13,832 nucleotides of DNA from Streptosporangiaceae bacterium (GTDB taxonomy: Bacteria; Actinomycetota; Actinomycetes; Streptosporangiales; Streptosporangiaceae), in assembly GCA_030041195.1 (NCBI GenBank), contig JASHOI010000407.1, forward strand, positions 1 to 13,832, in the 5' to 3' direction. A program made the translations under genes and the position numbers. Below the pieces are notes generated by a model that worked only from the letters and a program-made list of their open reading frames with translations, did no database searches and was not told the DNA's origin. Positions 506-13,832 of this stretch are shown here, piece by piece (position 1 is the first letter of the stretch; the number at the start of each line of letters is the position of its first letter).

Positions 506-2336
506 CCCGGCTCACCTCCCGGACCATCGCATCTTCTGCCGCCGCCGAGTTCAGCGCGCCCGCTCTCGTCGCCGCCGGGGGCGAACTCAGCGCGCCCGGC
601 GCCCGGTCTGGCGCCTCGGCGATCTGTCTGCACTCGAACAGCAGCTCAAGGCCGCGCAGCCCGGCGAGATCGCGGAACGCGTTCATGTCGGCCGATGACC
701 ATTCTTTGGCCAGCGCCCACACGTCCGCGGGTGTCCGGAGCGGCCGCTGCTCGCGCAGCGGCAACTCGCCGCACACATCGGCCAGGAACCGCAGGTCCGC
801 CTCGCCGAGAGCGCCGCCGCCGGCCGTGTCGTCGTCGCCGGGCCCGGCCGTGGCCTTCAGGTCGGCCCACGCGGATGCCAGCGGCAGCAGCACCCATCCG
901 TGGTGGATCCGCTCGTGCGCCCGGTCCGGGCCGGTGCCGCACTCGGGACAGTGCCCGGCCGAGCGCGAGTAGCGCCCGCATCGACGGCACATCCAGACCG
1001 GTCCCAGCGGCTCGGTGGAGCCGTACCCCGCGTTGCCCCCTTCCGGCGACTGCGAGGCGACCACGATCCCGAGCTTGGGCCGCAGCAACCGCCGGCCGTC
1101 GCGCTCGATGAACTCGCTGCGGTAGACCAGATGCTGCTGCGGGCAGCAGGCCGCCCGCTGCACCAGCGTCCGCCCGGCCGGCCCCGCGACCGAGACCAGC
1201 CGCACCTTGCTGCCGCAGCTGCGGCAGAACTCCGGCAGGATGCGGTCGTAACGCAGCACCGGGCCGCCGAAGCCGCGGTCGGCCGACAGCCACCGGCGGG
1301 CCAGCACGCTGCTGGCCACGTCGTTGGAACGCAGCTTCGGCCGCGCGGTAGGCAGCGCAGCGGCGGCACGACCCGCGTCGGCGCCGCCGAGCCAGCGGCG
1401 CTGCCAGCCCCACAGCGTGCTGGCGTACCGCGCGCCGTTACGGCTGCCGGGCTTGTGCTGGCCGGGCCGCCAGGCCGTCAGGTCATGGTCGTCCTGCCGG
1501 CACGGCCCCCGCCGGGCGAAGCCCAGCTCTTCGTCTTCGGCCGGCACCTTGCACCCGCAGCCGCGCCACAGCGCGCTCGCTTCGTCCGCGACCAGGCCCG
1601 CGAGGCTGGCCGTCCGGGCGGGCGTGTGCGGCCCGGGCAGGAACTCGATTCCCAGCCACCGCTCCACCGTGGACAGCGCCGAGCCGGCCGCGCTGACCCC
1701 CAGGTTGCAGAACAGGTGGAACGGGAACAGCCACTCCCGCGGCGGCACCCCGCTGGCCTGCGCCGCCCCGCCAACCACCGCCGCCGCAACCGCCTCGCCG
1801 AGGATCCGGTCCTGCAGCGTCACCCGGTGCCATCCCTGCCGCCGGTCGCCCGCCATCGCGGCGAACAACTCGTCCAGCTCCGCCGTCCGCCTGGCCAGTG
1901 CGTCCAGGGCGGCGGCCCACCCGGGCGAGCCGAACGCCGCGATCCTGCGGTGCACGTGCAGCAGCGCCGCGGCTTCCTCGGCCGGGTCCAGCCTCAGCGT
2001 GGACAGCGCCGAGATCGCGGTGATGGCCGTGACCCTCGGGCACTCCTGGCCACAGGCACCACCAACCGCCTGCGCCGCCACATCCACGATGCCGGCGGCC
2101 AGCAGGCGAACCGGGAACTCGTTCTGGTAGATCAAGGGCTCCACGTCGTCGTTGGCTGGTTCCTGGGCGAGAGGGTCGACTGAGTAAAGCCGCAGCCTCC
2201 GCCGCAGGCTCGGTGGGATGGACCCGGTGAGCGCGGTCAGCAGCGACGCCGGGTGCCCCGGGTCGCCTTCGGCGTCCGGCAACTGCCGGTCCGCCAGGGC
2301 CGCGGCCACCCTGTTCATGACCTCAGACCAGCGCAT
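492..2336 (-). CDS. Orphan protein with two Cys4 zinc-ribbon-like clusters (614 aa)
   Basis: I do not recognise the family. The start is taken as ATG at 2336, which shares one base with the TGA of the upstream solenoid gene (TGATG) and has GGAGG four bases upstream. A TTG one codon earlier is less well spaced. Residues 1-230 are mainly helical. A Cys-containing stretch lies at about 260-279 (GCGC, then C279). Two zinc-ribbon-like clusters follow: C371xxC374 with C397C398, and the clearer C450xxC453 with C463xxC466 (CRRCG, HCPECG). The last 35 residues are Ala/Pro-rich and probably disordered. There is no signal peptide or convincing membrane span, so it is probably cytoplasmic. Zinc ribbons of this kind bind protein or nucleic acid. 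In this operon a scaffold or adaptor role next to the alpha-solenoid protein is plausible but inferred. Confidence 0.75.
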   Translation of the reverse strand: MRWSEVMNRVAAALADRQLPDAEGDPGHPASLLTALTGSIPPSLRRRLRLYSVDPLAQEPANDDVEPLIYQNEFPVRLLAAGIVDVAAQAVGGACGQECPRVTAITAISALSTLRLDPAEEAAALLHVHRRIAAFGSPGWAAALDALARRTAELDELFAAMAGDRRQGWHRVTLQDRILGEAVAAAVVGGAAQASGVPPREWLFPFHLFCNLGVSAAGSALSTVERWLGIEFLPGPHTPARTASLAGLVADEASALWRGCGCKVPAEDEELGFARRGPCRQDDHDLTAWRPGQHKPGSRNGARYASTLWGWQRRWLGGADAGRAAAALPTARPKLRSNDVASSVLARRWLSADRGFGGPVLRYDRILPEFCRSCGSKVRLVSVAGPAGRTLVQRAACCPQQHLVYRSEFIERDGRRLLRPKLGIVVASQSPEGGNAGYGSTEPLGPVWMCRRCGRYSRSAGHCPECGTGPDRAHERIHHGWVLLPLASAWADLKATAGPGDDDTAGGGALGEADLRFLADVCGELPLREQRPLRTPADVWALAKEWSSADMNAFRDLAGLRGLELLFECRQIAEAPDRAPGALSSPPAATRAGALNSAAAEDAMVREVSRDEWA

Positions 2337-4450
2337 CAAGCCTCCAGCCGCGAAGCACCAGCCGCGTCCTTAGATGGCAGGTAGGGATAGCGAGGTCCGA
2401 GCTCGGCCAGCGCCGCCTCGGCCACGGCTGCCCAGCTTGCTCCGGTGGCGCCGCTGAGCCACCGCGCCGCGGCACCGGCCACCAGGCCGTCGAACGCGGC
2501 GACCTCAGCGATGGCGCTGGCCGCCGCCATCGCGCGGACGTTGGCCGCCAGCTCGGCGGCGAACGTCGCCGGCCAGTCAAGCTCGACCGCGACCTGCCAG
2601 CGGTCGGCCGGCGCCTCGGCCACCCAGGCGCTCAGCGCCAGGGCGGCCAGGTCGGGCAGCAGGCGGCCGCGCAGGAAGCGGACCAGGACCGCGGCGTCCA
2701 CCTCGCGCGCCTCGAGCAGCCGGGAAACACCGCGGGCGAGCAGCGGGTCCGGAACCTCCCGCCCGGCCAGCACCGCGAGGGCCGTCCACACCACAACCGA
2801 TTCCTCGTGGCTGAGCAGGCCGACCACCCGGGCCAGCACCTCCGGCGGCAGGTCCCGGCCCTGCAGCAGTTCCAGCGCGCTCACCACCACCGACGGGCTG
2901 CCGTGCCCGAGCAGCCCGCCGATCCGGTGCAGCACGTGCTCGGCGAGGTTGCGGCCGCGCAGCACGGAATGGGCCCCGCCGACGATCGAGGGGTCCCTGC
3001 GCTCCAGCGAGCCGATCACCCGGGAGATCACGCTCGCCGGCAGGTCCCTGCCCTCCAGCACCTGCAGCACGTGACCAACCACGGTGGCGTCCTCGTGCTC
3101 GAGCAGGCTGATGATCCGGGCCCTGACGTCGTCGGTCAGGTTCTTGTCCCGCAGCACGCCGAGCGCGTGCGCGACGACCGGCGGCCGGTCGTGTTCCAGC
3201 ACGTCCACCACCTGGGACAGGACGGGGCCGGGCAGATCCGTGCCCGCCAGCAGCGATCTGGCACCGAGGCCGACGGTCGAGTCCTCGTGCTCGAGCAGCC
3301 CGACAAGGCGGGCAAGCAGTTCATCAGGCAGATCACGGTTCTCCAGCAGGCCCAGCGCGCCGGCCACCACCTCGGGGCTCTCGTGCTCGAGCAGCTCGAC
3401 GATCTTGGACAGGATGTCCTCGTCGAGCTCACAGGTTTCCAGCACGCTCAGCGCGCTCCACACCACCAGCGGATCCCCGTGCTCGAGCAGGTCGACGATC
3501 CGGGACAGGATCTCGTCGTCGAGGTCGCGGCCCTCGAGCACGCTCAGCGCGCTCCACACCACGAGCGGGTCGGAGTCGGCCAGCAACGCGACGATCGGCG
3601 CCAGCAGGTGATCGGGAAGGTCGCGGTTCTCCAGCAGCGACGCGGCGCGCTCGGCCAGGGATCGGTCCGGGTTGGCCAGCAACGTGACGATGCGTTCCAG
3701 GAGGTCATCAGGGAGTTGACGGCCGTCGAGGACCAGGCGGGCGCTGGCAGCGACCGCGGGATCCCGGTGCCCGAGCAGGCCGACGATGCGATCGAGCAGG
3801 TCATCGGGCAGAACCCGGCCGTCGAGCACGAGGCGGGCGCTGGCCGCGATCGCGGTGTCGCCGTGGCCGAGCAGCTCGACGATGCGCGCGACCAGATCGC
3901 TCGGGAGGACCCGGCCCTCGAGCGCGCGAAGGGCGCTGGCGACGACCGCGGGATCCCCATGCCCGAGCAGGTCGACCACGCAGGACAGCACGGCCTGGGG
4001 CAGCTGGCGGGTGACCGCGCGGGCCCGGGCCGGGCCGCCCTGGCGCACCCCGCGGAACGCCTCGAGGCCGAACAGCGCGTCACCGGCGACCGCCGGGTCG
4101 GGGTCGGTGAGCAGCGCCAGGTACTCGGTGAGCACGTCGGTGTTGTCGAGGTGGTTGGCGAGAGCCGCGCAGGCCGGCCGGCGCATCGCCGGGTGGCGCA
4201 GCGCCATCGTCAGCACCGGCGAGCGGGGCCGCAGCCTGGCCATCGCGATCGCGAGCTCCGGGCGCCGGTCCGCGACCGCGGCCATCGCGATCGCGAGCTC
4301 GTCGTGCAGCACCCCGGCCAGGTCCTCGGGCCGGTCTTCGAGCACCGCGACCGCGCCGGCCACCCCGGCCAGCAGCGAGAGATCGGGCCGGGACGAGGCG
4401 TACCGGTACAGCCAGCGCACGTACCGGTCGGCGGCTTCGTTAACGGCCAT
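2336..4450 (-). CDS. HEAT/LRV-like alpha-solenoid protein with thirteen 32-residue repeats (704 aa)
   Basis: First gene of the minus-strand operon. The ATG at 4450 has an AAGGA ribosome site seven bases upstream. Residues 1-160 are helical and irregular, with poorly conserved repeat-like elements. Residues 161-576 are thirteen uninterrupted units of exactly 32 residues with the pattern LLxHxDPxVVxxALxxLxxRxLPDxLLxRIVx, so each unit holds two helices. Residues 577-704 form an Ala-rich helical cap. The periodicity resembles HEAT or leucine-rich-repeat-variant solenoids, which are protein-binding scaffolds. I know of no catalytic role for it. No signal peptide or membrane segment is seen, so it is probably cytoplasmic. 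Its stop overlaps the start of the zinc-ribbon gene by one base, so the two products are probably made in similar amounts and may interact. No convincing promoter is visible in the 132-bp divergent gap. Confidence 0.85.
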   Translation of the reverse strand: MAVNEAADRYVRWLYRYASSRPDLSLLAGVAGAVAVLEDRPEDLAGVLHDELAIAMAAVADRRPELAIAMARLRPRSPVLTMALRHPAMRRPACAALANHLDNTDVLTEYLALLTDPDPAVAGDALFGLEAFRGVRQGGPARARAVTRQLPQAVLSCVVDLLGHGDPAVVASALRALEGRVLPSDLVARIVELLGHGDTAIAASARLVLDGRVLPDDLLDRIVGLLGHRDPAVAASARLVLDGRQLPDDLLERIVTLLANPDRSLAERAASLLENRDLPDHLLAPIVALLADSDPLVVWSALSVLEGRDLDDEILSRIVDLLEHGDPLVVWSALSVLETCELDEDILSKIVELLEHESPEVVAGALGLLENRDLPDELLARLVGLLEHEDSTVGLGARSLLAGTDLPGPVLSQVVDVLEHDRPPVVAHALGVLRDKNLTDDVRARIISLLEHEDATVVGHVLQVLEGRDLPASVISRVIGSLERRDPSIVGGAHSVLRGRNLAEHVLHRIGGLLGHGSPSVVVSALELLQGRDLPPEVLARVVGLLSHEESVVVWTALAVLAGREVPDPLLARGVSRLLEAREVDAAVLVRFLRGRLLPDLAALALSAWVAEAPADRWQVAVELDWPATFAAELAANVRAMAAASAIAEVAAFDGLVAGAAARWLSGATGASWAAVAEAALAELGPRYPYLPSKDAAGASRLEA
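2723..3970 (-). repeat. Thirteen tandem 96-bp coding repeats of the alpha-solenoid
   Basis: Units of 32 codons run without a single indel. Most are diverged at DNA level, but neighbouring pairs are close. The 26 bases at 3441-3466 recur exactly at 3537-3562, a 96-bp offset (units 5 and 6), and units 2 and 3 share nearly the same LVLDGR segment around 3720 and 3817. This suggests growth by local unit duplication. Confidence 0.9.
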
Positions 4451-4582: not shown

Positions 4583-5329
4583 ATGACGGAAACACCGGTA
4601 CGCGAGCACGTGACCTGGATGGTTGCCACGGCCGGCCGGGTCAAAGACGAGACCCCGTCGGTGCGCACCATCGAGCTGCGGGCGCCGGGCTGGCCGGGGC
4701 ATCGCGCCGGGCAGCACCTGGACGTGCGGCTCACCGCGGATGACGGTTACCAGGCCGAGCGGTCGTACTCGATCGCGTCGGCGCCCGGCGAGCCGCTGGC
4801 GATCACCGTCGAGCGGCTCGACGACGGCGAGGTGTCGCCGTACCTGACCGAGGAGCTGCGGCCGGGCGACGAGATGGAGGTGCGCGGCCCGATCGGCGGG
4901 TACTTCGTCTGGGACGCCAGCGACGCCGGCACGCCGCTGCTGCTGGTGGGCGGCGGATCCGGGATCGTCCCGCTGCGGTCGATCCTGCGGTACCGGGAGC
5001 GGATCGGCGCCACCACCCCGACCAGGCTGCTCTACTCGGCACGCTCGCTCGCCGACGTGATCTACCGGAACGAGCTGGACGGCTACCGCGACGGCGTGGA
5101 GGTGATCTACACGCTGACCCGGAACCAGCCTCCTGGCTGGACCGGCCACGCCGGCCGGGTCGACGCCGCGCTGCTCACCGACGTCGCCTGGCCGATGAGC
5201 GAGGATCCGCTCGCGTTCGTCTGCGGTCCCACCAGCTTCGTCGAGACCGTGGCGGCCGGCCTGGTCGGGCTCGGCTACCTGCCGGGCCGGGTCAAGACCG
5301 AGCGCTTCGGCGCGACCGGCAAGAGCTGA
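4583..5329 (+). CDS. Ferredoxin-reductase-type FAD/NAD(P)-binding oxidoreductase (248 aa)
   Basis: A flavoprotein of the ferredoxin-NADP reductase superfamily that moves electrons between NAD(P)H and a redox partner. Residues 10-110 form the FAD-binding barrel with the signature R60-SYS-63, followed by IAS. Residues 115-235 form the nucleotide-binding domain with GGGSGIVPL (123-131) and CGPTSF (214-219). It ends in KTERFG (238-243), with no plant-type [2Fe-2S] domain, so the partner must be a separate protein. Length is normal for the stand-alone form. The start is the ATG at 4583, with GGAG about four bases upstream; an ATG four codons earlier has no ribosome site. Relatives are often encoded beside a sulfite-oxidase-like molybdoprotein, which is absent here. 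It lies 16 bases upstream of the methyltransferase gene, so the two are probably cotranscribed. Confidence 0.88.
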   Translation: MTETPVREHVTWMVATAGRVKDETPSVRTIELRAPGWPGHRAGQHLDVRLTADDGYQAERSYSIASAPGEPLAITVERLDDGEVSPYLTEELRPGDEMEVRGPIGGYFVWDASDAGTPLLLVGGGSGIVPLRSILRYRERIGATTPTRLLYSARSLADVIYRNELDGYRDGVEVIYTLTRNQPPGWTGHAGRVDAALLTDVAWPMSEDPLAFVCGPTSFVETVAAGLVGLGYLPGRVKTERFGATGKS

Positions 5330-5345: not shown

Positions 5346-6395
5346 ATGGGCCGTTACGCGCTGCTGATCCTCCCGTCGGCGAACCGCGTGTACGCGGAGG
5401 GGTCGACCGCGCTGACCGTTGCCGAGCTAGAGGCGTTCGGCGGGTCCGTGCTCGGCGGCCGGATTGGCGGCGCGTCGGCGGCCGTGATCGGCGGCGTGCC
5501 CTACGTCACCTTCGCCGCCGACCGCATCGACGCCAGCGACGCGGCGCTGCTCGCCAACCTCTCGTCGGTGTACGCGCTGTTCCGGATCGAGGACCGGCGC
5601 AGCGGCGGCGAGGTGCTGCGGCCGGTCGAGTTGCGCCCGCTCGACCGGTTCGACGATGACCTGATCACGATCCAGAAGTACCAGGGGAAGACGAACGAGC
5701 AGTTCACCAAGCTGCTGCTGAACGTCACGCTGCTGGCGTCCGGCTTCGCGAGCCAGATGCTGGACCGGAAGTTCGCGGTGCTCGACCCGCTGTGCGGCCG
5801 CGGGACGACGCTCAACCAGGCCCTGACGTACGGGTTTGACGCGGCCGGCATCGACCTCGACGCTAAGGACTTCGACGCGTACGCGGCGTTCATCCAGACC
5901 TGGCTGAAGCGCAAGCGGGTCAAGCACCACGCGGAGCAGGCGCGGCTGCGGCTCGGCGGCCGGGTGGCCGGCCGGCGGCTGCGGATCACCCTCGCGGCTG
6001 ACAAGGACGACTACAAGGCCGGCGTCACCCAGCGCCTCGACGTGGTCAACGCCGACACGATCCGGGCCGCCGAGTTCTTCAAGCCGGAGACGTTCGACCT
6101 GGTCGTGGCCGACGCCCCGTACGGGGTCCAGCACGGCAGCCGGACCGCGGCCAGGGGCCTGGCGCGCAGCCCGGTGGACCTGCTGGCCGCCGCCGCACCC
6201 GGCTGGGCGAGCCTGCTGCGCAGCGGCGGCGCGTGCGGGATCGCGTGGAACACGCTGGTCGCCCGCCGCGACGAGGCGGCCAAGATCCTCGCGGACGCCG
6301 GACTGGATCCGGTGGACTCCGGGCCGTACCTGGGGTTCCGGCACCGGGTGGACCAGGCGATCGTGCGCGACATCCTGGTCGCCCGCAAGCCGTAG
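5346..6395 (+). CDS. TRM11-like SAM-dependent RNA/DNA methyltransferase (349 aa)
   Basis: The C-terminal half is a Rossmann-fold methyltransferase. Motif I is DPLCGRGTT (147-155), which binds S-adenosylmethionine, followed by GIDLDAKD at about 168-175. The catalytic motif IV is DAPYG (256-260), the counterpart of the (D/N)PPY motif of enzymes that methylate exocyclic amino groups. The segment KYQGKTNEQFTKLLLNV (111-127) before motif I is typical of the TRM11/Trm-G10 group, which makes N2-methylguanosine in tRNA. The first 100 residues replace the usual THUMP region and are not a clear THUMP. The ATG at 5346 has GGGAGG six to twelve bases upstream, inside the 16-base gap after the flavoprotein gene. 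The target, tRNA or other nucleic acid, is inferred from the family. Confidence 0.8.
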   Translation: MGRYALLILPSANRVYAEGSTALTVAELEAFGGSVLGGRIGGASAAVIGGVPYVTFAADRIDASDAALLANLSSVYALFRIEDRRSGGEVLRPVELRPLDRFDDDLITIQKYQGKTNEQFTKLLLNVTLLASGFASQMLDRKFAVLDPLCGRGTTLNQALTYGFDAAGIDLDAKDFDAYAAFIQTWLKRKRVKHHAEQARLRLGGRVAGRRLRITLAADKDDYKAGVTQRLDVVNADTIRAAEFFKPETFDLVVADAPYGVQHGSRTAARGLARSPVDLLAAAAPGWASLLRSGGACGIAWNTLVARRDEAAKILADAGLDPVDSGPYLGFRHRVDQAIVRDILVARKP

Positions 6396-6566: not shown

Positions 6567-7424
6567 TCAGCTACGTTCCCAGGTGACGCTGAACCCGTTG
6601 CCGCTGCTGTTCAGCGCTCCCGGCTGAGCCTCGACCGCGCCGGACGAGGTGACCATGGTGATCTCGTCGTCGGTGAACGAGGAGATCACGCCGGATGTCG
6701 AGCCCTCCGTCACCGTCGCGCCGGAGAAGCTGACCGTGCCGAAGTCGGTGAGCGGGTAGACGCCGGACGAACCGCTCGGCGCCTCGGCGATCCACTCGGC
6801 GCTGCTGTCCGCGGCGCCCGAGTAGGTCTGCGTGGTGCTGAAGCTGTCCGCGGGGTGGGTGGAGTCGGTGACCGCGAGCGTGTAGCTGTCACCACTACGG
6901 GTCACCGAAGCGGTGATCTGGTCGCCGGGATCGACGTTGGCGACGACCTGGACATCATTCTCCGGGTAGATCTCCCACCAGTCGTAGTAGTACACCGTGC
7001 CCTCGTAGGACTCGATGAGCGTGCCATCCTGCTCAACCGTGTCACTGCTGTAGCCGTCGATGCCGACCCAGAACGCGGCGAGCGACGTCGTCCTCCTGCC
7101 GCTGGAGACCCCCGTGGGCTCGGTCCAGCTGCCGGTCACCTTGGAGAAGCCGCTGCCGGTGTCGGCGTAACCCGACCAGTTGGTGCTCTCCACCTGGGTA
7201 AGGCCTCTGACCTTTGACGAGTGCCCGGCCACCCGCTGATCGGAACTGTGCCGGCCGATCGCGAGGTGCTCAATGGCGGTGCGGGCGATCGCGGCGGCTC
7301 TGGCGCTCGGCGCGGTGGCGGCGGTGCTGGCACCCGCCGCCGGGCCGAGGGCCAGGAGCATGCCGACGGCCGGCACGCACGCAGCTAAAGCGATGCCGAG
7401 GAGCCGATGAGGACGCAGATGCAT
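6567..7424 (-). CDS. Secreted glutamic peptidase, family G1 / Peptidase_A4 (285 aa)
   Basis: A bacterial relative of scytalidoglutamic peptidase, an acid-active endopeptidase that uses a Gln-Glu dyad. Residues 1-32 are a Sec signal peptide: Arg-rich start, hydrophobic core, then a likely cut after GPAAGA. A propeptide-like Ala-rich segment runs to about residue 75. The mature domain begins near TNWSGY (81-86) and has VTGSWTEPT (96-104), FWVGIDG (118-124), the catalytic Gln as Q132 in VEQDG, YDWWEIYPE (147-155) and the catalytic Glu as E214 in AEWIAEAP. Both dyad residues match the fungal enzyme's ILQTG and AEFIIE segments from memory. Length fits the family. It is transcribed alone, with its own candidate promoter and a hairpin at its end. 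It is probably exported for extracellular protein breakdown. Confidence 0.9.
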   Translation of the reverse strand: MHLRPHRLLGIALAACVPAVGMLLALGPAAGASTAATAPSARAAAIARTAIEHLAIGRHSSDQRVAGHSSKVRGLTQVESTNWSGYADTGSGFSKVTGSWTEPTGVSSGRRTTSLAAFWVGIDGYSSDTVEQDGTLIESYEGTVYYYDWWEIYPENDVQVVANVDPGDQITASVTRSGDSYTLAVTDSTHPADSFSTTQTYSGAADSSAEWIAEAPSGSSGVYPLTDFGTVSFSGATVTEGSTSGVISSFTDDEITMVTSSGAVEAQPGALNSSGNGFSVTWERS

Positions 7425-7731: not shown

Positions 7732-10554
7732 ATGTCGATCGAGGAGATCGAGGGCGAGATTCACGCTGCCTACCTGCGCCTTGCCGAGTCTGTTGCCCTG
7801 GTCCGTCACGGTCATGAGCATTACCTGGACAGCCTGGCTGCCCCGGGCGGCGAGCCGCTACGGCAGAGACCTCCCGAGGTTCACGGTTGGTATGCGGCCC
7901 CTGTGGTTGATGCGGCCGCTGATATGGCACATGAAACGGTGATCGCTGCGGCGATCCAGGCGCACGATCAGGCCGTTGGCCGCCTGCCGGAAACGGTTAA
8001 TGCGCTTGCCGCCGCCAATCCCTGGGCACTGGCGGACTTCGGCGCCCCGGAATGGGACAGCTACCAGCCCGACCTGAGAGCGCCGTCGCCGACCGGGGTC
8101 CGGGTGGGTGTCCTCAACGTGGCGCACAGCGCCGGCATGCCGCTGATGCCGGCGGTCGCGAGGTTCACCGGGCACGGCCACCTGCTGGTCGAGGCCGAAG
8201 AGGGCGCCGGGGCCGGGGCCCGCTCCCTGCTGCAGGCTTTAACTCTCCGGCTCGCGGTGGCCACCAGGCCCGGCACGGTGCGGTTCGCGCTCGCCGACCC
8301 GCTCGGCCAGGGCGAGCAGCTCAGCGGGTTCCTGCGGCTGCCGGCCACGCTGCGGGTGGGCAGCGGGGTCGCCTCCAGCGCCGCGGAGATCGAGGCGCTG
8401 CTGAAGACGCTCACCGACCACGTGGTCGAGGTGACCCAGACCAGGCTGACCAACGTCTACGACTCGGTCGAGGCCTACAACGCCGCGACCACGGGGGTAT
8501 CCGTTCCGTACCACGTCCTGGTCCTGGCGGGTTTCCCCGGCGGCATCAGCGAGCAATCGGCCGACCTGCTGACGCGGCTTGCCCGTAACGGCCCGCGCGC
8601 CGGGGTCTACATTCTGGCGACGATCGAGCGTGGCCAGGAGCGGGCCCGGGACCACGGCCTTTCCGCGCTCGCCGCGGCGGCCGCGGACCTGCACGTGGCC
8701 GCCGGGGGCACCGTGACCTGGAACGACCCCGACTTCGGCCGGTGGGCGATCGAGCCTGACGCGATGCCGCCGGCGGCACGGGTGAACGCGTGGCTGGACG
8801 CCGTGGGCGCCGCGGCCAGCCTGGGCTCGCGGGACCTGCCGTTCGCGCGGATCGCGATCCCGCCCGCCGAGCGCTGGGCCGCCGACACCACCGACGGCCT
8901 TGACGCCCAGATCGGCGTCGATAGCAAGGGTGAGCCACAGCACTTCGTGATGGGGACCCGGGGGGTGCACAACGGCCTGGTCGGCGGCGACGTGCGCATG
9001 GGCAAGAGCAACCTACTGCACGTGCTGATCACCCAGCTCGCGCTCAAGTACCCGCCGGAAGAGCTCGAGCTGTACCTGCTCGACTTCAAGGAAGTCGAGT
9101 TCGACGCGTACCTCACCCAGCGGCTGCCGCACGCCAGGGCGATCGCGTCCCGCACCGACCGCGAGTTCGGCCTCAGCATGCTGCGTCGATTCCATGACGA
9201 GATCGAGCGGCGGGCTCGGCTGTGCCGGCAGGCCAGGGTCACCCAGCTTCCCGAGTACCGCATCCAGACCGGACAGGTGCTGCCCAGGTCGCTGGTGATC
9301 ATGGACGAGTTCCAGGTGCTGTTCAGCGAGGAGGACCGGCTGTCCAGGGAGGCCGGGGCGTTGCTGGCGGACATCGCCAAGCGAGGCGCGGCGTTCGGGC
9401 TGCACCTGCTGCTGGCCACCCAGTCGCCCGGCGGTTCGCTGACCGTGCACCTGCGGCCGGCCTACGAGCAGATGGCGCTGCGAATCGCTCTTGGCTGCCT
9501 GCTGCCGAGCGTCTCCCAGGCGATCCTGGGCGAGGGCAACGACGCGGCGATCAGGCTCAACAAGGCCGGCGACGCCATCTACAACGACCGCCGCGGTGAA
9601 GGCGCCAACCCGGTCATGCGGATCGCGATGCTGCCGACCGCCGGCCGGCTGGAGTGGATATCAACGATCCGGTCCCTTGGCGGCGATCGGGTCTACGAGC
9701 CGTCCGCCACCTTCGACCCGGACGCGCCAGCGGATTTCGCGGCCAACCCGGCCTGCGCGGTGTTCGCGGCAGATCCGGGCCGCTGGCCCGTTCCCGGCCC
9801 CACGACGGCGGCCTGGCTCGGCGAGGCGATCGAGATCAAGCCCGCCACCGCCGCCGTGTTCGAGAGCTTCGTGCGGTCGAACCTGCTGGTGATCGGCGAC
9901 GAGGAACACGGCCACGCGCTGCTGCTCGCCACCCTGCTCAGCGCGGCGGTGCAGCGCTCGCCCGCCGACGTCTCGTTCGTGATCGCCGAATTCGCCCGGC
10001 CGTCCTCGCCGTTCCACCGCTACTTCGATCCGCTGCGTGACCTGCCGCACGAGGCCGTGGTCGTCGGTGGCGCCGATGCCCTCGCCGCCCTGCAGGATCT
10101 GAGCGCCGATCTCGACGCACGGCTCGCGGACGCCGGGGCATCACCGCGGCCGCTGCGGTTCTTCCTGGTCGCGGGGCTGCACCGGTGGCAGGAACTCGGC
10201 GCCGACAGCGAATGGGGCAAGCCCACAGCGGCGACGGCGCTGCTGACCAGGCTCGCCGAGCACGGCCCGGAGGTGGGCATCCACGTGGTGGTCTGGGCCG
10301 ACAGCTACGCCACCGCCGAGCGGGCTCTGCGGCGCCCCGGCATCGGCCAATTCACGCTTCGCGTAGCCTTGCGCCTGCCGTCGCCTACGGAGAGCGATGC
10401 CCTTCTCGGCGTGCCCGCCGCGGCCAGCCTGGCGGACGACCGCGCCCTGTTCCGGGACGTGGACTGGCCGCACGAGCAGGTCGAGAAGTTCAAGCCGTAC
10501 TCGTCCAGTTCGCTGTACGCATTCGCCCGAACCGCCTTCAGGAGACCGGCATGA
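7732..10554 (+). CDS. Soluble FtsK/SpoIIIE-type ATPase with three ATPase-like domains, EccC-like (940 aa)
   Basis: Residues 1-115 are helical. Domain 1 (about 120-375) has a degenerate P-loop at 156-165 (EEGAGAGARS, no lysine) and a Walker B position without acids (VLVLAGFP, 262-269). Domain 2 (about 395-650) is intact: Walker A GDVRMGKS (419-426), LLDFKEVEFD (449-458), Walker B LVIMDEFQ (521-528) and ATQSP (562-566), as in FtsK and the type VII secretion ATPase EccC. Domain 3 (about 700-940) has the degenerate loop IGDEEHGHAL (721-730) and no Walker B acids. No transmembrane helix is seen, whereas EccC carries two and is longer. The ATG at 7732 has GAGGGG ten bases upstream. It overlaps the next gene as ATGA and leads an operon with WXG100-like genes, so the substrate is more likely protein than DNA. 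This is inference. Confidence 0.85.
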   Translation: MSIEEIEGEIHAAYLRLAESVALVRHGHEHYLDSLAAPGGEPLRQRPPEVHGWYAAPVVDAAADMAHETVIAAAIQAHDQAVGRLPETVNALAAANPWALADFGAPEWDSYQPDLRAPSPTGVRVGVLNVAHSAGMPLMPAVARFTGHGHLLVEAEEGAGAGARSLLQALTLRLAVATRPGTVRFALADPLGQGEQLSGFLRLPATLRVGSGVASSAAEIEALLKTLTDHVVEVTQTRLTNVYDSVEAYNAATTGVSVPYHVLVLAGFPGGISEQSADLLTRLARNGPRAGVYILATIERGQERARDHGLSALAAAAADLHVAAGGTVTWNDPDFGRWAIEPDAMPPAARVNAWLDAVGAAASLGSRDLPFARIAIPPAERWAADTTDGLDAQIGVDSKGEPQHFVMGTRGVHNGLVGGDVRMGKSNLLHVLITQLALKYPPEELELYLLDFKEVEFDAYLTQRLPHARAIASRTDREFGLSMLRRFHDEIERRARLCRQARVTQLPEYRIQTGQVLPRSLVIMDEFQVLFSEEDRLSREAGALLADIAKRGAAFGLHLLLATQSPGGSLTVHLRPAYEQMALRIALGCLLPSVSQAILGEGNDAAIRLNKAGDAIYNDRRGEGANPVMRIAMLPTAGRLEWISTIRSLGGDRVYEPSATFDPDAPADFAANPACAVFAADPGRWPVPGPTTAAWLGEAIEIKPATAAVFESFVRSNLLVIGDEEHGHALLLATLLSAAVQRSPADVSFVIAEFARPSSPFHRYFDPLRDLPHEAVVVGGADALAALQDLSADLDARLADAGASPRPLRFFLVAGLHRWQELGADSEWGKPTAATALLTRLAEHGPEVGIHVVVWADSYATAERALRRPGIGQFTLRVALRLPSPTESDALLGVPAAASLADDRALFRDVDWPHEQVEKFKPYSSSSLYAFARTAFRRPA

Positions 10555-11276
10555 CCCCGATGCCAGCCCAAGCCCCCGCCACGGCGCTGTCCCCGTACCT
10601 TTCACTTCGCCAGGCGGTGCGGCCCGCGATCGTGACCTATACCGTTCTTGCCAGCGAGCAGGAACGCGCCGGCGCGCTGGCCGATGAGGCCAGCCAGCTT
10701 CTGGAGGCCACGCGGGAACTGCTCGAGGCGGTCGGCCTGGTTCACCTGCTCAGCCCCGATCCCGGCGCGGAGATCCCGGGCAACGACCGCGGCGACCGCC
10801 AGGCCCGGCTGCTCGCCGCTTACGCAGACGCCGGAGTCCTGTGGGCCAAGGTCGTCGGCCACTCGATAGCACTTGCCGACGGACTGCTCGGCCAGGCCAG
10901 ATGGCACGACGTGCTGCGGCTGGCCGACTTCCTCGAGCACGCCGGCGAAACGGTGGTCGCCGACAGCCTGCGCCAGCGCGCGAACGACGCGATACGCGGC
11001 GAGTACTACGCCCGGATCAGCTCCATACACGACAGAATGTCGCGAGAGGAAACGGCGGCGGCCATCGACACGCTGCGGTCGCTGCCCAAGGAATTCCCGG
11101 AGCGGAAACTGGAGATCGCGTTGCGCCTCCGGCCCCTCGGGGCGTCGGTGAAGACCGTCACCAGGCTGGACCGCCAGACGAGAAATACTGTCGAATCGGC
11201 GATGAGCAGCCTCCCCGATTCGGCCGACTACTACCTTGCCGTTCTCTCCGACATCTATTACAGCTTCGTGAAGTAG
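10551..11276 (+). CDS. All-helical cytoplasmic protein of unknown function (241 aa)
   Basis: The family is not recognised. The ATG overlaps the ATPase stop (ATGA) and has AGGAG six bases upstream, which fixes the start. After a Pro/Ala-rich opening of about 15 residues the protein is nearly all amphipathic helix: segments around 20-65 (TVLASEQERAGALADEASQL), 80-150 (ARLLAAYADAG, WHDVLRLADFLEHAGE) and 155-240. There is no signal peptide, membrane span, Cys pair or recognisable catalytic motif. The coupling to the ATPase and the 9-base gap before the WXG100-like gene suggest it is a component or chaperone of the same machine, perhaps in the position held by EspG-like chaperones in ESX loci, but no sequence similarity to EspG is claimed. 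Confidence 0.75.
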   Translation: MTPMPAQAPATALSPYLSLRQAVRPAIVTYTVLASEQERAGALADEASQLLEATRELLEAVGLVHLLSPDPGAEIPGNDRGDRQARLLAAYADAGVLWAKVVGHSIALADGLLGQARWHDVLRLADFLEHAGETVVADSLRQRANDAIRGEYYARISSIHDRMSREETAAAIDTLRSLPKEFPERKLEIALRLRPLGASVKTVTRLDRQTRNTVESAMSSLPDSADYYLAVLSDIYYSFVK

Positions 11277-11285
11277 AGGAGGATC

Positions 11286-11567
11286 GTGGCCGAGGTCAAC
11301 GTCAGCGACATTGAGGCACTTGCGGACTTCAGATCGCATCTGGCCGAGTTCAACAAGAATCTGGCGGAAAGCTTCAAGACCATGCGCACCCACTGGCGTG
11401 AACTCGGCGAGGTCTGGCGCGACGACATGTACCGCCGTTTTGGCGAGGCACTGGAGGAGGTCACGCCGGGCGTCGATTCCTACCTGGCGGCCACCGAGGC
11501 GCACGAGGCATATTTGCTCGCTCTCGTCGAGCGTCTCCGGGCGGTCCGCGAACTGTCGGCGGAGTGA
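11286..11567 (+). CDS. WXG100-like small helical protein with W-x-D-D motif (93 aa)
   Basis: Length and layout match the WXG100/ESAT-6-like family: two long helices joined by a turn carrying W44-R-D46-D47, followed by F52 and G53, then a second helix to the end (DSYLAATEAHEAYLLALVERL). The canonical W-x-G is W-x-D here. The N-terminus reads VSDIEALADFRSHLAEF, which recurs in the next gene. The start is GTG at 11286, with a strong AGAGGAGGA ribosome site that overlaps the stop of the previous gene. The stop overlaps the next start (GTGA). There is no signal peptide, as expected for type VII substrates. Such proteins are exported as dimers or act as assembly factors recognised by FtsK-type ATPases. 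Whether this one is exported is not shown. Confidence 0.8.
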   Translation: MAEVNVSDIEALADFRSHLAEFNKNLAESFKTMRTHWRELGEVWRDDMYRRFGEALEEVTPGVDSYLAATEAHEAYLLALVERLRAVRELSAE

Positions 11568-12028
11568 CGGACGTGGCCGATATCCACGCGGACGTCGAGG
11601 CGCTCAAGGAGTTCGCCGGCGCGCTCACCCGGTACCGGTACGCCCAGCGCGAGGTGGCAGACCGGGGCGACCACGAGATCGCGGCGACACGCGCCTCGCT
11701 CGAGGAAAAGGCCAGTCGATGGCGGTCATTGCTGAACCAGCGGCAGGCCAATCTCGCCGCCTGCCAGCGCGCGGCGGCCCTGGACACCGACGGCGGCGGC
11801 CACACGGACTGCCATGCGGAGGCCGCGGCGGTGCGGGAGGCACAGGAACGGCTGGAGTCGATCAGGCGCTGGCAGCAGCAGGTCGAGGACGGAGCCAGCG
11901 CGTACCTCGGCCCGGCGGGCCGGTTCCGGAACCTGCTCGAGGTGGACCTGCCGCGGACCGAGAACCACCTGCAGGCCATCGTCGACGGCCTCGAGGCCGC
12001 GCGGGGCGTCCGGGTGGCACGATCCTGA
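11564..12028 (+). CDS. Coiled-coil protein of unknown function sharing the N-terminal motif of its neighbour (154 aa)
   Basis: The GTG start at 11564 overlaps the stop of the WXG100-like gene as GTGA, so the two are translationally coupled. Residues 9-25 (ADVEALKEFAGALTRYR) repeat the D-[IV]-E-A-L-x-[DE]-F-x3-L pattern of the previous protein. Residues 25-70 and 85-112 are charged heptad-like helices (ATRASLEEKASRW, REAQERLESIRRW) on either side of a Gly-rich turn (77-80, DGGGH), a hairpin coiled coil. Two cysteines, C67 and C83, sit on the two sides of the turn and could face each other. A third helix (LPRTENHLQAIVDGLEAA) follows. It may be the partner or chaperone of the small WXG-like proteins. 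It is not a family I can name. Confidence 0.75.
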   Translation: MTDVADIHADVEALKEFAGALTRYRYAQREVADRGDHEIAATRASLEEKASRWRSLLNQRQANLAACQRAAALDTDGGGHTDCHAEAAAVREAQERLESIRRWQQQVEDGASAYLGPAGRFRNLLEVDLPRTENHLQAIVDGLEAARGVRVARS

Positions 12029-12053
12029 CGCCGGCCGGAGAAGGAACGAGCTG

Positions 12054-12266
12054 ATGGCCGGCCGCCCGCACGAGGACGGGGAACTCCTGCTCAGAGAAAT
12101 AGGGTCCGCCTGGTCCGGAACGCAGCAGCACTGGCATGATGACCTGGCGAGCAACTTTGGCCGCCTGCACTGGGCGCCGTTGGTCGACGAGTCCCGCTCC
12201 TACCTGCGGGCACTCGGCGAGTGCATGGAACTGCTGACCACCGCCGAGCGGGAAACCGAGTACTGA
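12054..12266 (+). CDS. Second, shorter W-x-D-D WXG100-like protein (70 aa)
   Basis: The ATG at 12054 lies eight bases after AAGGA. The reading frame is open further upstream, but only this start has a ribosome site and avoids a long overlap with the coiled-coil gene. Residues 20-36 read WSGTQQHWHDDLASNFG, with W27-x-D29-D30 and F35-G36 at the same spacing as W44, D46, D47, F52 and G53 of the 93-residue protein. The second helix, RSYLRALGECMELLTTAER, also aligns with DSYLAATEAHEAYLLALVER. The first helix is much shortened, so it looks like a truncated paralogue that may pair with the longer one. It is the last gene before a 210-bp gap and ends the compact operon. Confidence 0.75.
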   Translation: MAGRPHEDGELLLREIGSAWSGTQQHWHDDLASNFGRLHWAPLVDESRSYLRALGECMELLTTAERETEY

Positions 12267-12476: not shown

Positions 12477-13832
12477 GTGGTCCCTGTTGCTTCCGGTCGA
12501 CACCGGAGGCCTGAGGACGAGCTGTTCAGTACCCCCGAGTTCTACCAGGAGCCAGGCATGGCAGGTCCCGAAGCCGGTTACGCCGGCGAGTGGGGGCCCG
12601 GGCCGGCCGCGGCGCCCGGACCTCAGGCTTACGACAGAGTTGACTTCCAACCCGCGAATGGGCAGCCCATGGACGTTGTTCCGGACTGGCCGCCGGACTC
12701 GCTCGGAGCCTCCTGGCCCCAGTGGGACGCGCCGCCGCCCGCGCTGTATCCCGATCACCCTTCCGCCCCGGTACCGCGGGTGCAGATGGCCGCGCCGGCC
12801 GGGGCCGCCATGCGCGGCAACCCCGGACGCCCCGCCGGGCCGATGACCGGGCCGCCTCAGCTGCCGCAGCGGCGGCGGCCGGGAGGCCCCGGGCCAGTCG
12901 GCCCCGGGAACGGCGGACCTCGGGCCAACGGCGGCGGTCCCCCTCCGGGCGGGCCGGGCCGGTCAGCCCAGGCGCGGAACGTGCCGCTGACGCAGGACTT
13001 CAACACGGGCGACATTTACAACACCGGCGACCTCTACAACGCCGGTGACATGTACAACTCCGGCCAGTTCCCCGCGGTGCGCCCCGACTACCCGGCAGGC
13101 CCGAACGTGCAGCCGCAGGCCGGAGGGCCAGCGCCGCGGCAGGCCGGCCCAGGCGGGCCCGGCGGGGCAAGCCGGGCCAATGGACTCGCACGGCGTAACG
13201 GGCCCGGCCAAGCAGGCGGACCGGCACCCCGGCGCGGCGGACCCGCGCGGCCCAACGGGATGCCGGGGCCTGGCGGACCGGCCGCACCCAACGGTTACGC
13301 ACAGCCCGGCCCACCCGCCGGCTACCCGCAGCCCGGCCCACCCGCCGGTTACGCACAGCCCGGACCCAACGGCTACCCGCAGCCCGGACCCAACAGCTAC
13401 GCGGGAGCCGGGCCGACCGGGATGCCAGGGCCTGGCGGACCGGCCGCACCCAACGGCTATCCGACCCTCGGCGGGCCGGCCGGACCCAGCCGACGACCCG
13501 GACCGGGAGGACCCAGGCGACAGAACGCGCTCCCCGGACCTGCCGGACCGGCCGCGCCCAACGGCTACCCACAGCCGGGCGCACCCACCGGACCCAACGG
13601 CTTCGTAAGGCCGGGCGCGCCGACCGGGTCAAACGGCTTCCCGACCCTTGGCGGACCACCCGCGCCCAACGGACGCCCAGGACCGGGCGGGCCCGCCGGA
13701 ACCGGCGGCTACCCGACCCTCGGCGGACCCAGCGCCCCAGCGCGGCCCGACAGGCCAGCGCGGGCCGGCGGCCCTCCGCGGGCCGGCGGACCTCGTGCAG
13801 GCGGAGCCACCGGACCCGGCGGCTTCCCAACC
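12477..13832 (+). CDS. Pro/Gly/Ala-rich low-complexity protein, N-terminal part (at least 452 aa, runs off window)
   Basis: The frame is open from GTG at 12477 to the window edge. GGAGG four bases upstream supports this start; an ATG at 12558 is internal. Residues 1-25 (ASGRHRRPEDELFSTPEFY) look like a conserved cytoplasmic N-terminus without a signal peptide. Residues 28-175 are Pro/Gly-rich with scattered Trp (GEWGPG, DWPPDS, SWPQWD). Residues 176-199 are a tandem hexapeptide, N-x-G-D-[ILM]-Y three times and then NSGQFP. From about 205 on, the protein is built of Q-P-G-P and N-G-[YF]-P units (NGYPQPG, YPTLGG, GPAAPNG). In ESX loci, long Pro-rich N-termini occur in EspI-like proteins, which end in a MinD-like ATPase. 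The deciding C-terminus is outside the window, so function is open. Confidence 0.8.
   Translation, partial: MVPVASGRHRRPEDELFSTPEFYQEPGMAGPEAGYAGEWGPGPAAAPGPQAYDRVDFQPANGQPMDVVPDWPPDSLGASWPQWDAPPPALYPDHPSAPVPRVQMAAPAGAAMRGNPGRPAGPMTGPPQLPQRRRPGGPGPVGPGNGGPRANGGGPPPGGPGRSAQARNVPLTQDFNTGDIYNTGDLYNAGDMYNSGQFPAVRPDYPAGPNVQPQAGGPAPRQAGPGGPGGASRANGLARRNGPGQAGGPAPRRGGPARPNGMPGPGGPAAPNGYAQPGPPAGYPQPGPPAGYAQPGPNGYPQPGPNSYAGAGPTGMPGPGGPAAPNGYPTLGGPAGPSRRPGPGGPRRQNALPGPAGPAAPNGYPQPGAPTGPNGFVRPGAPTGSNGFPTLGGPPAPNGRPGPGGPAGTGGYPTLGGPSAPARPDRPARAGGPPRAGGPRAGGATGPGGFPT
13002..13073 (+). repeat. Tandem 18-bp coding repeat (N-x-G-D-hydrophobic-Y)
   Basis: Four consecutive 18-base units encode NTGDIY, NTGDLY, NAGDMY and NSGQFP. 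Third codon positions vary while the protein pattern holds, which suggests selection on the peptide and not a recent slippage event. Confidence 0.85.
13266..13456 (+). repeat. Direct repeats in the Pro/Gly-rich coding region
   Basis: A 29-base segment at 13266-13294 (encoding GPGGPAAPNG) recurs exactly at 13428-13456. Between them, a 20-base element encoding QPGPPAG at 13302-13321 recurs at 13329-13348, a 27-base (nine-residue) period. The identity at DNA level suggests recent internal duplication. Confidence 0.8.

Follow-up and report, generated by a model that had tools for sequence, protein, structure and literature searches.

A stand-alone five-gene operon with a soluble EccC-like ATPase and W-x-D hairpin proteins in a Streptosporangiaceae bacterium

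Relation to described systems

FtsK/EccC-type ATPases that occur apart from canonical type VII secretion systems (T7SSs) have been noted before. Footnote 6 of table 1 in PMC3482391 (2012) lists solo WXG domains together with a YueA-like three-module ATPase in which the middle module alone is active, and the available text of that paper describes such sets as apparent mobile versions of the T7SS. The available text of PMC11090510 (2024) describes ATPases of this kind in Type III-A CoCoNuTs, where they lack membrane domains and are accompanied by two WXG100 proteins; it refers to Anantharaman 2012 for forms that stand alone and considers that a different mechanism appears likely for a membrane-free T7-like motor. 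In Helicobacter pylori, HP0062 (PDB 3fx7) has a WRD at its bend and its gene clusters with that of an FtsK/SpoIIIE protein, according to the available part of PMC3397514; the available part of PMC4978471 names a neighbouring-gene cluster "WXG100 secretion system", presumably the HP0062/HP0066 cluster, and describes HP0062 and HP0066 as widely conserved WxG and FtsK paralogues. The T7SSc-j types, as defined in the available text of PMC11217815 (2024), all have membrane-bound ATPases with four NTPase domains. Here, we describe a compact operon of five genes (g1-g5) at positions 7732-12266 of a 13,832-nucleotide stretch of contig JASHOI010000407.1 (assembly GCA_030041195.1) from a Streptosporangiaceae bacterium; the whole stretch is referred to as the window.

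Sequence comparison, structure prediction, and a phylogenetic tree showed that, within the class of soluble EccC-like ATPases with W-x-D hairpins, this operon forms a stand-alone branch from actinobacteria. With the soluble EssC-like ATPase/WXG100 module of PMC3482391 and PMC11090510, as far as the available texts describe it, the operon shares the three FtsK modules of which the middle alone is active, the absence of membrane helices (stated in PMC11090510), two adjacent small WXG100-type proteins, and a coiled-coil protein. It differs in standing alone, as none of the genes tested was of the TerY-P, CoCoNuT, or CARF kind, in a coiled coil without a C-terminal nuclease-like domain, and in the additional gene g2; furthermore, the footnote of PMC3482391 lists other phyla, not actinobacteria. 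A TerY-P triad or McrBC domains were found neither in the nine window proteins scanned nor in the eight flank proteins tested from L001-L004, the close relatives described below. The H. pylori cluster likewise combines a W-x-D hairpin (WRD in HP0062) with an FtsK/SpoIIIE gene, whereas the cluster table seen in PMC4978471 has an extra DnaK homologue and an HNH/ENDO VII nuclease. HP0062 was the closest solved relative of the W-x-D hairpin profile (3fx7, E 8.5e-16), ahead of the EsxA and EsxB structures.

Canonical ESX (T7SSa) and the T7SSb-j types, in the available text of PMC11217815, also combine an EccC-related ATPase with small helical hairpin proteins; their T7SSa and T7SSc-j ATPases are membrane bound with four NTPase domains, whereas g1 is soluble with three modules. 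Judged by its sequence, the operon is not a canonical ESX system, because g1 showed no membrane helix and only its middle ATPase module is intact, and because W-x-D replaces W-x-G, the YxxxD/E signal is absent, and neither EccB nor EccD was found on the cassette contigs of its relatives. The class is known, and the five-gene form is a new variant with a putative function. The operon is not the isolated case that an earlier note, made from the DNA letters alone, had seen in it, since the tree places it in a cross-phylum class that the available parts of PMC3482391, PMC11090510, and the Helicobacter literature already contain. A literature search, with most subscription papers outside it, turned up no paper recognisable as dealing with this five-gene form in actinobacteria, with W-x-D as a mark of the class, or with the Cys pair of g4.

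Layout of the operon

The operon consists of five open reading frames, all on the forward strand:

7732-10554, + strand: g1, soluble three-module FtsK/EccC-like ATPase, 940 residues (PF01580, EccC matches, AlphaFold2 model)
10551-11276, + strand: g2, all-helical protein, 241 residues (at least 848 homologues at E ≤ 0.001, AlphaFold2 model)
11286-11567, + strand: g3, WXG100-like hairpin with W-x-D (WRDD), 93 residues, GTG start (weak PF06013 match, HP0062 profile match)
11564-12028, + strand: g4, coiled-coil carrier-like protein, 154 residues, GTG start (conserved Cys pair, profile match to L059 and L019)
12054-12266, + strand: g5, short W-x-D (WHDD) paralogue of g3, 70 residues (alignment to g3, kept in L001-L004)

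Two gene pairs, g1/g2 and g3/g4, overlap by 4 bases, and the remaining gaps are 9 and 25 bases; the homologues of g4 suggest a start at 11573 in place of the called 11564. The earlier note had described five coupled genes for an ATPase, a helical protein, a W-x-D-D protein, a coiled-coil protein, and a short W-x-D-D paralogue, and this observation holds: all five frames were confirmed, with WRDD in g3 and WHDD in g5. Hydropathy analysis found no membrane helix in g1-g5. Pfam contained no family for g2 or g5 and gave only a sub-threshold match for g4.

Conservation of the five genes as a unit

Seven related loci were found, four of them close (L001-L004, 65-82% identity) and three remote (23-27%). 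All five genes were recovered by tblastn in the same order in the four close loci (4/4), with identities of 38-89% for g2, 66-90% for g3, 56-73% for g4, and 47-70% for g5. Gene order is thus kept in every close relative, and the case named in the earlier note as refuting it, homologues that never occur together, does not apply. The flanks of the cassette in L001-L004 varied (eight proteins tested, including a histidine kinase, DAG kinase/PAP2, BNR, Mrr, and ferric reductase-like proteins), and the five genes were taken as the unit because the tested flank proteins differ. Furthermore, the five genes are under purifying selection: the ratio of nonsynonymous to synonymous substitution rates (dN/dS) was 0.05-0.48 in 15/15 comparisons (0.28-0.48 for g5), made for each gene in three pairs among the window, L001, L002, and L004, with L003 left out.

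At E ≤ 0.001, candidate lists of about 8,000 yielded at least 522 homologues of g1, 848 of g2, and 722 of g4; among the matches listed (120 per gene), the sources were Streptosporangiaceae or Actinomycetota metagenome-assembled genomes (MAGs). Close g1 homologues (E ≤ 1e-100) occurred in 4/345 genomes of the order of one relative, G002, and these were the same four as L001-L004. Within one family, g1 was matched at E ≤ 1e-30 in 16/297 genomes, the four close ones included, and across Actinomycetota a match to the class was obtained at E ≤ 1e-60 in 10/396 sampled genomes, G002 included. Nine further loci (L023-L026, L047, and L066-L069) share genomes with L001-L004 and were not counted again.

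Twelve relatives at 31-35% identity were not taken as close. Seven of these 12 loci (L029, L031, L032, L033, L035, L036, and L037) showed, by eye, one recurring chromosomal context of this related soluble ATPase subfamily: a biotin-ligase-like gene stands beside the ATPase, and an 86-residue hairpin without W-x-D, a coiled coil of about 210 residues, and a membrane protein were called in several of the loci. The locus looks housekeeping. The biotin-ligase and PH-domain names of these neighbours were given by eye.

The motor protein g1

The g1 protein matched PF01580 (E 4e-32) and the EccC structure 4nh0 by sequence (3.5e-26), profile (9.5e-58), and fold (3.9e-33). The NCBIfam EccC and EssC models also matched, far below their own cut-offs. 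The AlphaFold2 model, a single-chain prediction like all those used here, has a helical hairpin at the N-terminus followed by three RecA-like modules:

g1 residues 3-95: N-terminal helical hairpin, helices 3-35 and 60-95 (AlphaFold2, low confidence)
g1 residues about 120-370: module 1, degenerate
g1 residues 385-655: module 2, active, with Walker A at 419-426, its Lys at 425, and Walker B (LVIMDEF) at 521-527
g1 residues 690-935: module 3, degenerate

The same pattern was seen across the class: among 47 aligned ATPases, Walker A was intact in the middle module (D2) of 46, and GK[ST] was present in none (0/47) in either D1 or D3. No hydrophobic segment was found in residues 1-120 of g1 (maximum Kyte-Doolittle value 1.06). 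In the same hydropathy test, four of five T7-type control ATPases reached 1.86-2.42 and one just 1.31; the controls included the ATPases of L020, L021, and L077, which were left out of the counts. Together with the EccC homology, the hydropathy result and the model agree with the soluble FtsK-type ATPase proposed in the earlier note. In the tree, the active module of g1 joined those of soluble ATPases from other phyla (34 sequences; support, 100/98), and this group adjoined EccC ATPase 1.

The W-x-D hairpins g3 and g5

The match of g3 to WXG100 (PF06013) was weak (3e-4), with a score of 21.3 bits where the cut-off is 27.3. By itself, g5 matched no family; its paralogy comes from the alignment to g3, in which it looks like a g3 that lacks about 17 N-terminal residues, with W-x6-W-x-D common to both. 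WXG-like hairpins are accordingly present, as the earlier note had read them, g3 through the weak PF06013 match and the HP0062 profile and g5 through g3. W-x-D was found in 10/10 g3 and g5 sequences from the window and L001-L004, and the g5 of the window additionally has one W-x-G at the earlier Trp. Elsewhere in the genomes of the relatives, six PF06013-type genes were read, of which five have W-x-G (three of these also with YxxxE) and one has neither; frames from L009 and L011 were excluded, as they are not WXG genes. Many members of the cross-phylum class of soluble three-module ATPases adjoin W-x-D hairpins. The hairpin is not universal in the class, because its profile matched a hairpin beside the ATPase in just 5/15 further loci.

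The coiled-coil protein g4 and the helical protein g2

Two conserved Cys residues lie about 15 residues apart in g4; they were kept in 120/120 and 119/120 of the matches listed, drawn from at least 722 at E ≤ 0.001. The homologues were 147-162 residues long in 117/120 of these matches, and g4 (154 residues) and its listed homologues are too short for a nuclease-like domain behind the coiled coil. Indeed, g4 ends after the coiled coil, with no C-terminal effector domain.

In hhalign, the g4 profile matched the coiled-coil half of the L059 protein with a probability of 90, that of the L019 protein with 88, and, moderately, L058 (63). The L059 (5383-6399) and L019 (9565-10509) proteins are 32% identical over nearly their full length (E 2e-38), Cys residues included, and have a common C-terminal domain with no Pfam or NCBIfam name. 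A comparable Cys pair was seen by eye in L007, L016, L017, L019, L058, and L059, and not in L022 or L063. The coiled-coil protein of L022 ends in a WHH/colicin-DNase-like domain (1.1e-11, 9.8e-9), and a SUKH-type gene adjoins it. L022 (3140-7542), on a Helicobacter plasmid, holds a W-x-D hairpin, a coiled coil-WHH protein, SUKH, a short helical protein, and a soluble ATPase in one gene run.

The AlphaFold2 model of g2 was all-helical, with ten helices (pLDDT 82), and had no significant PDB match by fold or profile. Among the matches listed, g2 homologues have so far come from this lineage only. The protein is likely an adaptor.

Possible function and competing explanations

Our preferred reading, held tentatively, is that the operon encodes a cytosolic motor by which a carrier of coiled-coil type would be loaded or exported. 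In this model, g1 would form a cytosolic ring powered by its single active middle module, and g3 and g5 would together make up a WXG100-like bundle of four helices; docked on g1, this bundle may present g4. The latter would be the carrier or substrate, resembling the front half of those coiled coils in relatives that bear an extra C-terminal domain, and g2 could act as an all-helical adaptor. The motor might then load, unfold, or export g4 or a g4-bound partner, with direction and destination both presumed. As the operon has no gene for a membrane component, an unlinked pore or direct docking at the membrane would be required for export. The window contains no recognised effector.

Several observations weigh against this interpretation. 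No membrane part is encoded in the operon, no toxin or immunity gene was recognised beside the window family, and the structure predictions cover single chains only. The hydropathy test failed to detect one of its five controls (1.31). In the tree, the rows of the soluble class were picked via similarity to g1, and the six canonical ATPase 1-type modules, one of which is the second matched module of L077, grouped at 92/86, below star level. On sequence grounds, modules 1 and 3 of g1 are not assignable to particular EccC modules; module 1 scored weakly (best 40 for ATPase 1 and 26 for the stretch preceding it), and module 3 was equally like ATPases 1 and 2 (59 and 60). The g4 profile did not match the coiled coils of L016, L017, L022, or L063 (probability <3) and gave a value of 4 for L007.

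The hairpins contribute further points of this kind. The known export signal YxxxD/E was found in 0/10 g3 and g5 sequences and in 3/13 other hairpins checked (L017, L022, and L058). In a 14-sequence hairpin alignment from several phyla, only the first Met, W, and D were invariant; the resulting 14/14 count for W-x-D is biased, as nine members were selected with the motif in view, either visually or for belonging to the window family, and the remaining five were found by a profile built from such W-x-D sequences. That profile recovered the hairpin in only the 5/15 further loci given above, inspection by eye showed no W-x-D protein in L005 or L018, and neither L016 nor L022 has W-x-D in its short proteins. 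Finally, several relatives adjoin intracellular conflict or stress genes, which suits a cytosolic job equally well.

The last point leads to the explanation that is nearly as likely, in which the operon would encode an intracellular assembly for defence or stress: the motor and the W-x-D bundle would target nucleoprotein or components of an invader, secretion would play no part, and g4 would be a structural coiled coil. Relatives lie near genes for a Card1-like nuclease, vWA, PP2C, and a kinase (L016), or Hsp70, TPR, and GrpE (L018), and in L019 a TerD domain is fused to the ATPase. Beside the ATPase in five loci picked for that look, ThiF exceeded its cut-off in 5/5 and JAB in 4/5. The available text of PMC11090510 places such ATPases in CoCoNuT systems, and the lack of YxxxD/E in g3 and g5 (0/10) also fits. 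In one of the four close loci, an Mrr-type restriction endonuclease gene (L003, 14817-16247, − strand) directly follows the cassette. However, none of these partners is among the five genes of the window cassette. The PADLOC matches were partial and at the domain level (g1 to mad8 of MADS, 1.4e-15, and to SspH; g4 weakly to PDC-M68B), and the WHH nuclease and SUKH immunity-type gene of L022 suit delivery better. The earlier note had left the choice between a secretion-related machine and a cytoplasmic assembly or defence system; both readings stay live.

L006, L007, L063, L064, and L065 hold a soluble ATPase and W-x-D hairpins beside ThiF (E1-type)/JAB, which may represent the coupling of a T7-like motor to conjugation of the ubiquitin-like type; some proteins of L006, L007, and L064 that have no Pfam match presumably resemble E2. 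In L018, the frame at 11304-12122, after the hairpin gene, matched no Pfam or NCBIfam family and lies near Hsp70, TPR, GrpE, and the soluble ATPase.

A bolder form of the motor-and-carrier reading is a membrane-free delivery machine, in which a ring-shaped cytosolic EccC-like motor and the W-x-D pair would load and launch a coiled-coil carrier pinned by its Cys residues (a disulfide or metal tip). The window lineage would then be an effector-free, possibly domesticated version of a launcher for polymorphic toxins that occurs in different phyla, Gram-negatives among them. We regard this as rather unlikely.

The operon bears on the question of how a type VII-like motor might work without membrane parts, which is raised in the available text of PMC11090510. 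The five-gene form is compact, is free of attached restriction, phosphorylation, and ubiquitin-like genes, and has a motor of fewer than 1,000 residues. With its components in purified form, one could decide between protein movement and intracellular action for the class. Concrete residues for testing are offered by the W-x-D motif, the almost invariant Cys pair, and the ATPase 1-type active module.

ESX membrane components and the remaining alternatives

No EccB or EccD was found on any of the four contigs that carry the cassette in the relatives (0/4), and these contigs likewise had no TIGR03921 match for MycP; among 33 subtilase-type matches elsewhere, none exceeded the cut-off. These results bear out the absence of a visible ESX membrane set described earlier. 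The proposed check of 20 kb on both sides was covered only in part, since the contigs of the relatives are 13, 50, 76, and 42 kb long, and the window itself extends 7.7 kb upstream and 1.6 kb downstream of the operon.

A secretion ATPase working in trans with a canonical ESX membrane core encoded elsewhere in the genome is improbable. EccB, EccD, and EccC over its cut-off occurred on other contigs in two of the four relative genomes, so that the borrowing of membrane parts suggested in the earlier note is possible there; in the other two, neither EccB nor EccD was found, which is weak evidence because both are fragmented MAGs. The W-x-D of g3 and g5, without YxxxD/E, differs from the same-genome PF06013-type genes, five of six of which have W-x-G (three with YxxxE). 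Relatives also occur on Caballeronia, Helicobacter, and Deinococcus plasmids, and EccB was found in 0/5 of these plasmid records, the records alone being searched and not the host chromosomes. Groups such as these are not known to have ESX cores.

The database name "DNA segregation ATPase FtsK/SpoIIIE" would imply that g1 translocates DNA in housekeeping or segregation; this is quite improbable, as the sequence of g1 matches EccC best, not FtsK, and the neighbouring genes are WXG-like. A decaying T7SS remnant, which the missing membrane parts, the two degenerate ATPase modules, and the lack of a recognised effector might suggest, is scarcely credible and is largely refuted by the selection test (dN/dS 0.05-0.48 across all five genes), with homologues of g1, g2, and g4 numbering in the hundreds and the middle-active architecture common across phyla.

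Other features of the window

The gene at 6567-7424 (− strand), adjacent to g1 and divergent from it, encodes a Peptidase A4 (PF01828) protein whose N-terminus is hydrophobic. Its homologues adjoin the cassette in L001 (76%) and lie nearby in L002 (46%); no match was found in L003 or L004. Further upstream, an RlmKL-like methyltransferase-domain gene (UPF0020) at 5346-6395 (+ strand) had no tblastn match in L001-L004; in PADLOC, this gene, outside the operon, partially matched mad2 of MADS (1.1e-6). It is preceded by the 3' part of a frame ending at 5326 (+ strand), which encodes an FAD/NAD-binding oxidoreductase. A HEAT-repeat protein (PF13646) is encoded by 96-base tandem repeats at 2336-4450 (− strand). 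Near the end of the window, positions 13001-13794 contain a strongly AT-skewed cluster of short tandem repeats (18, 24, 27, 36, and 54 bases).

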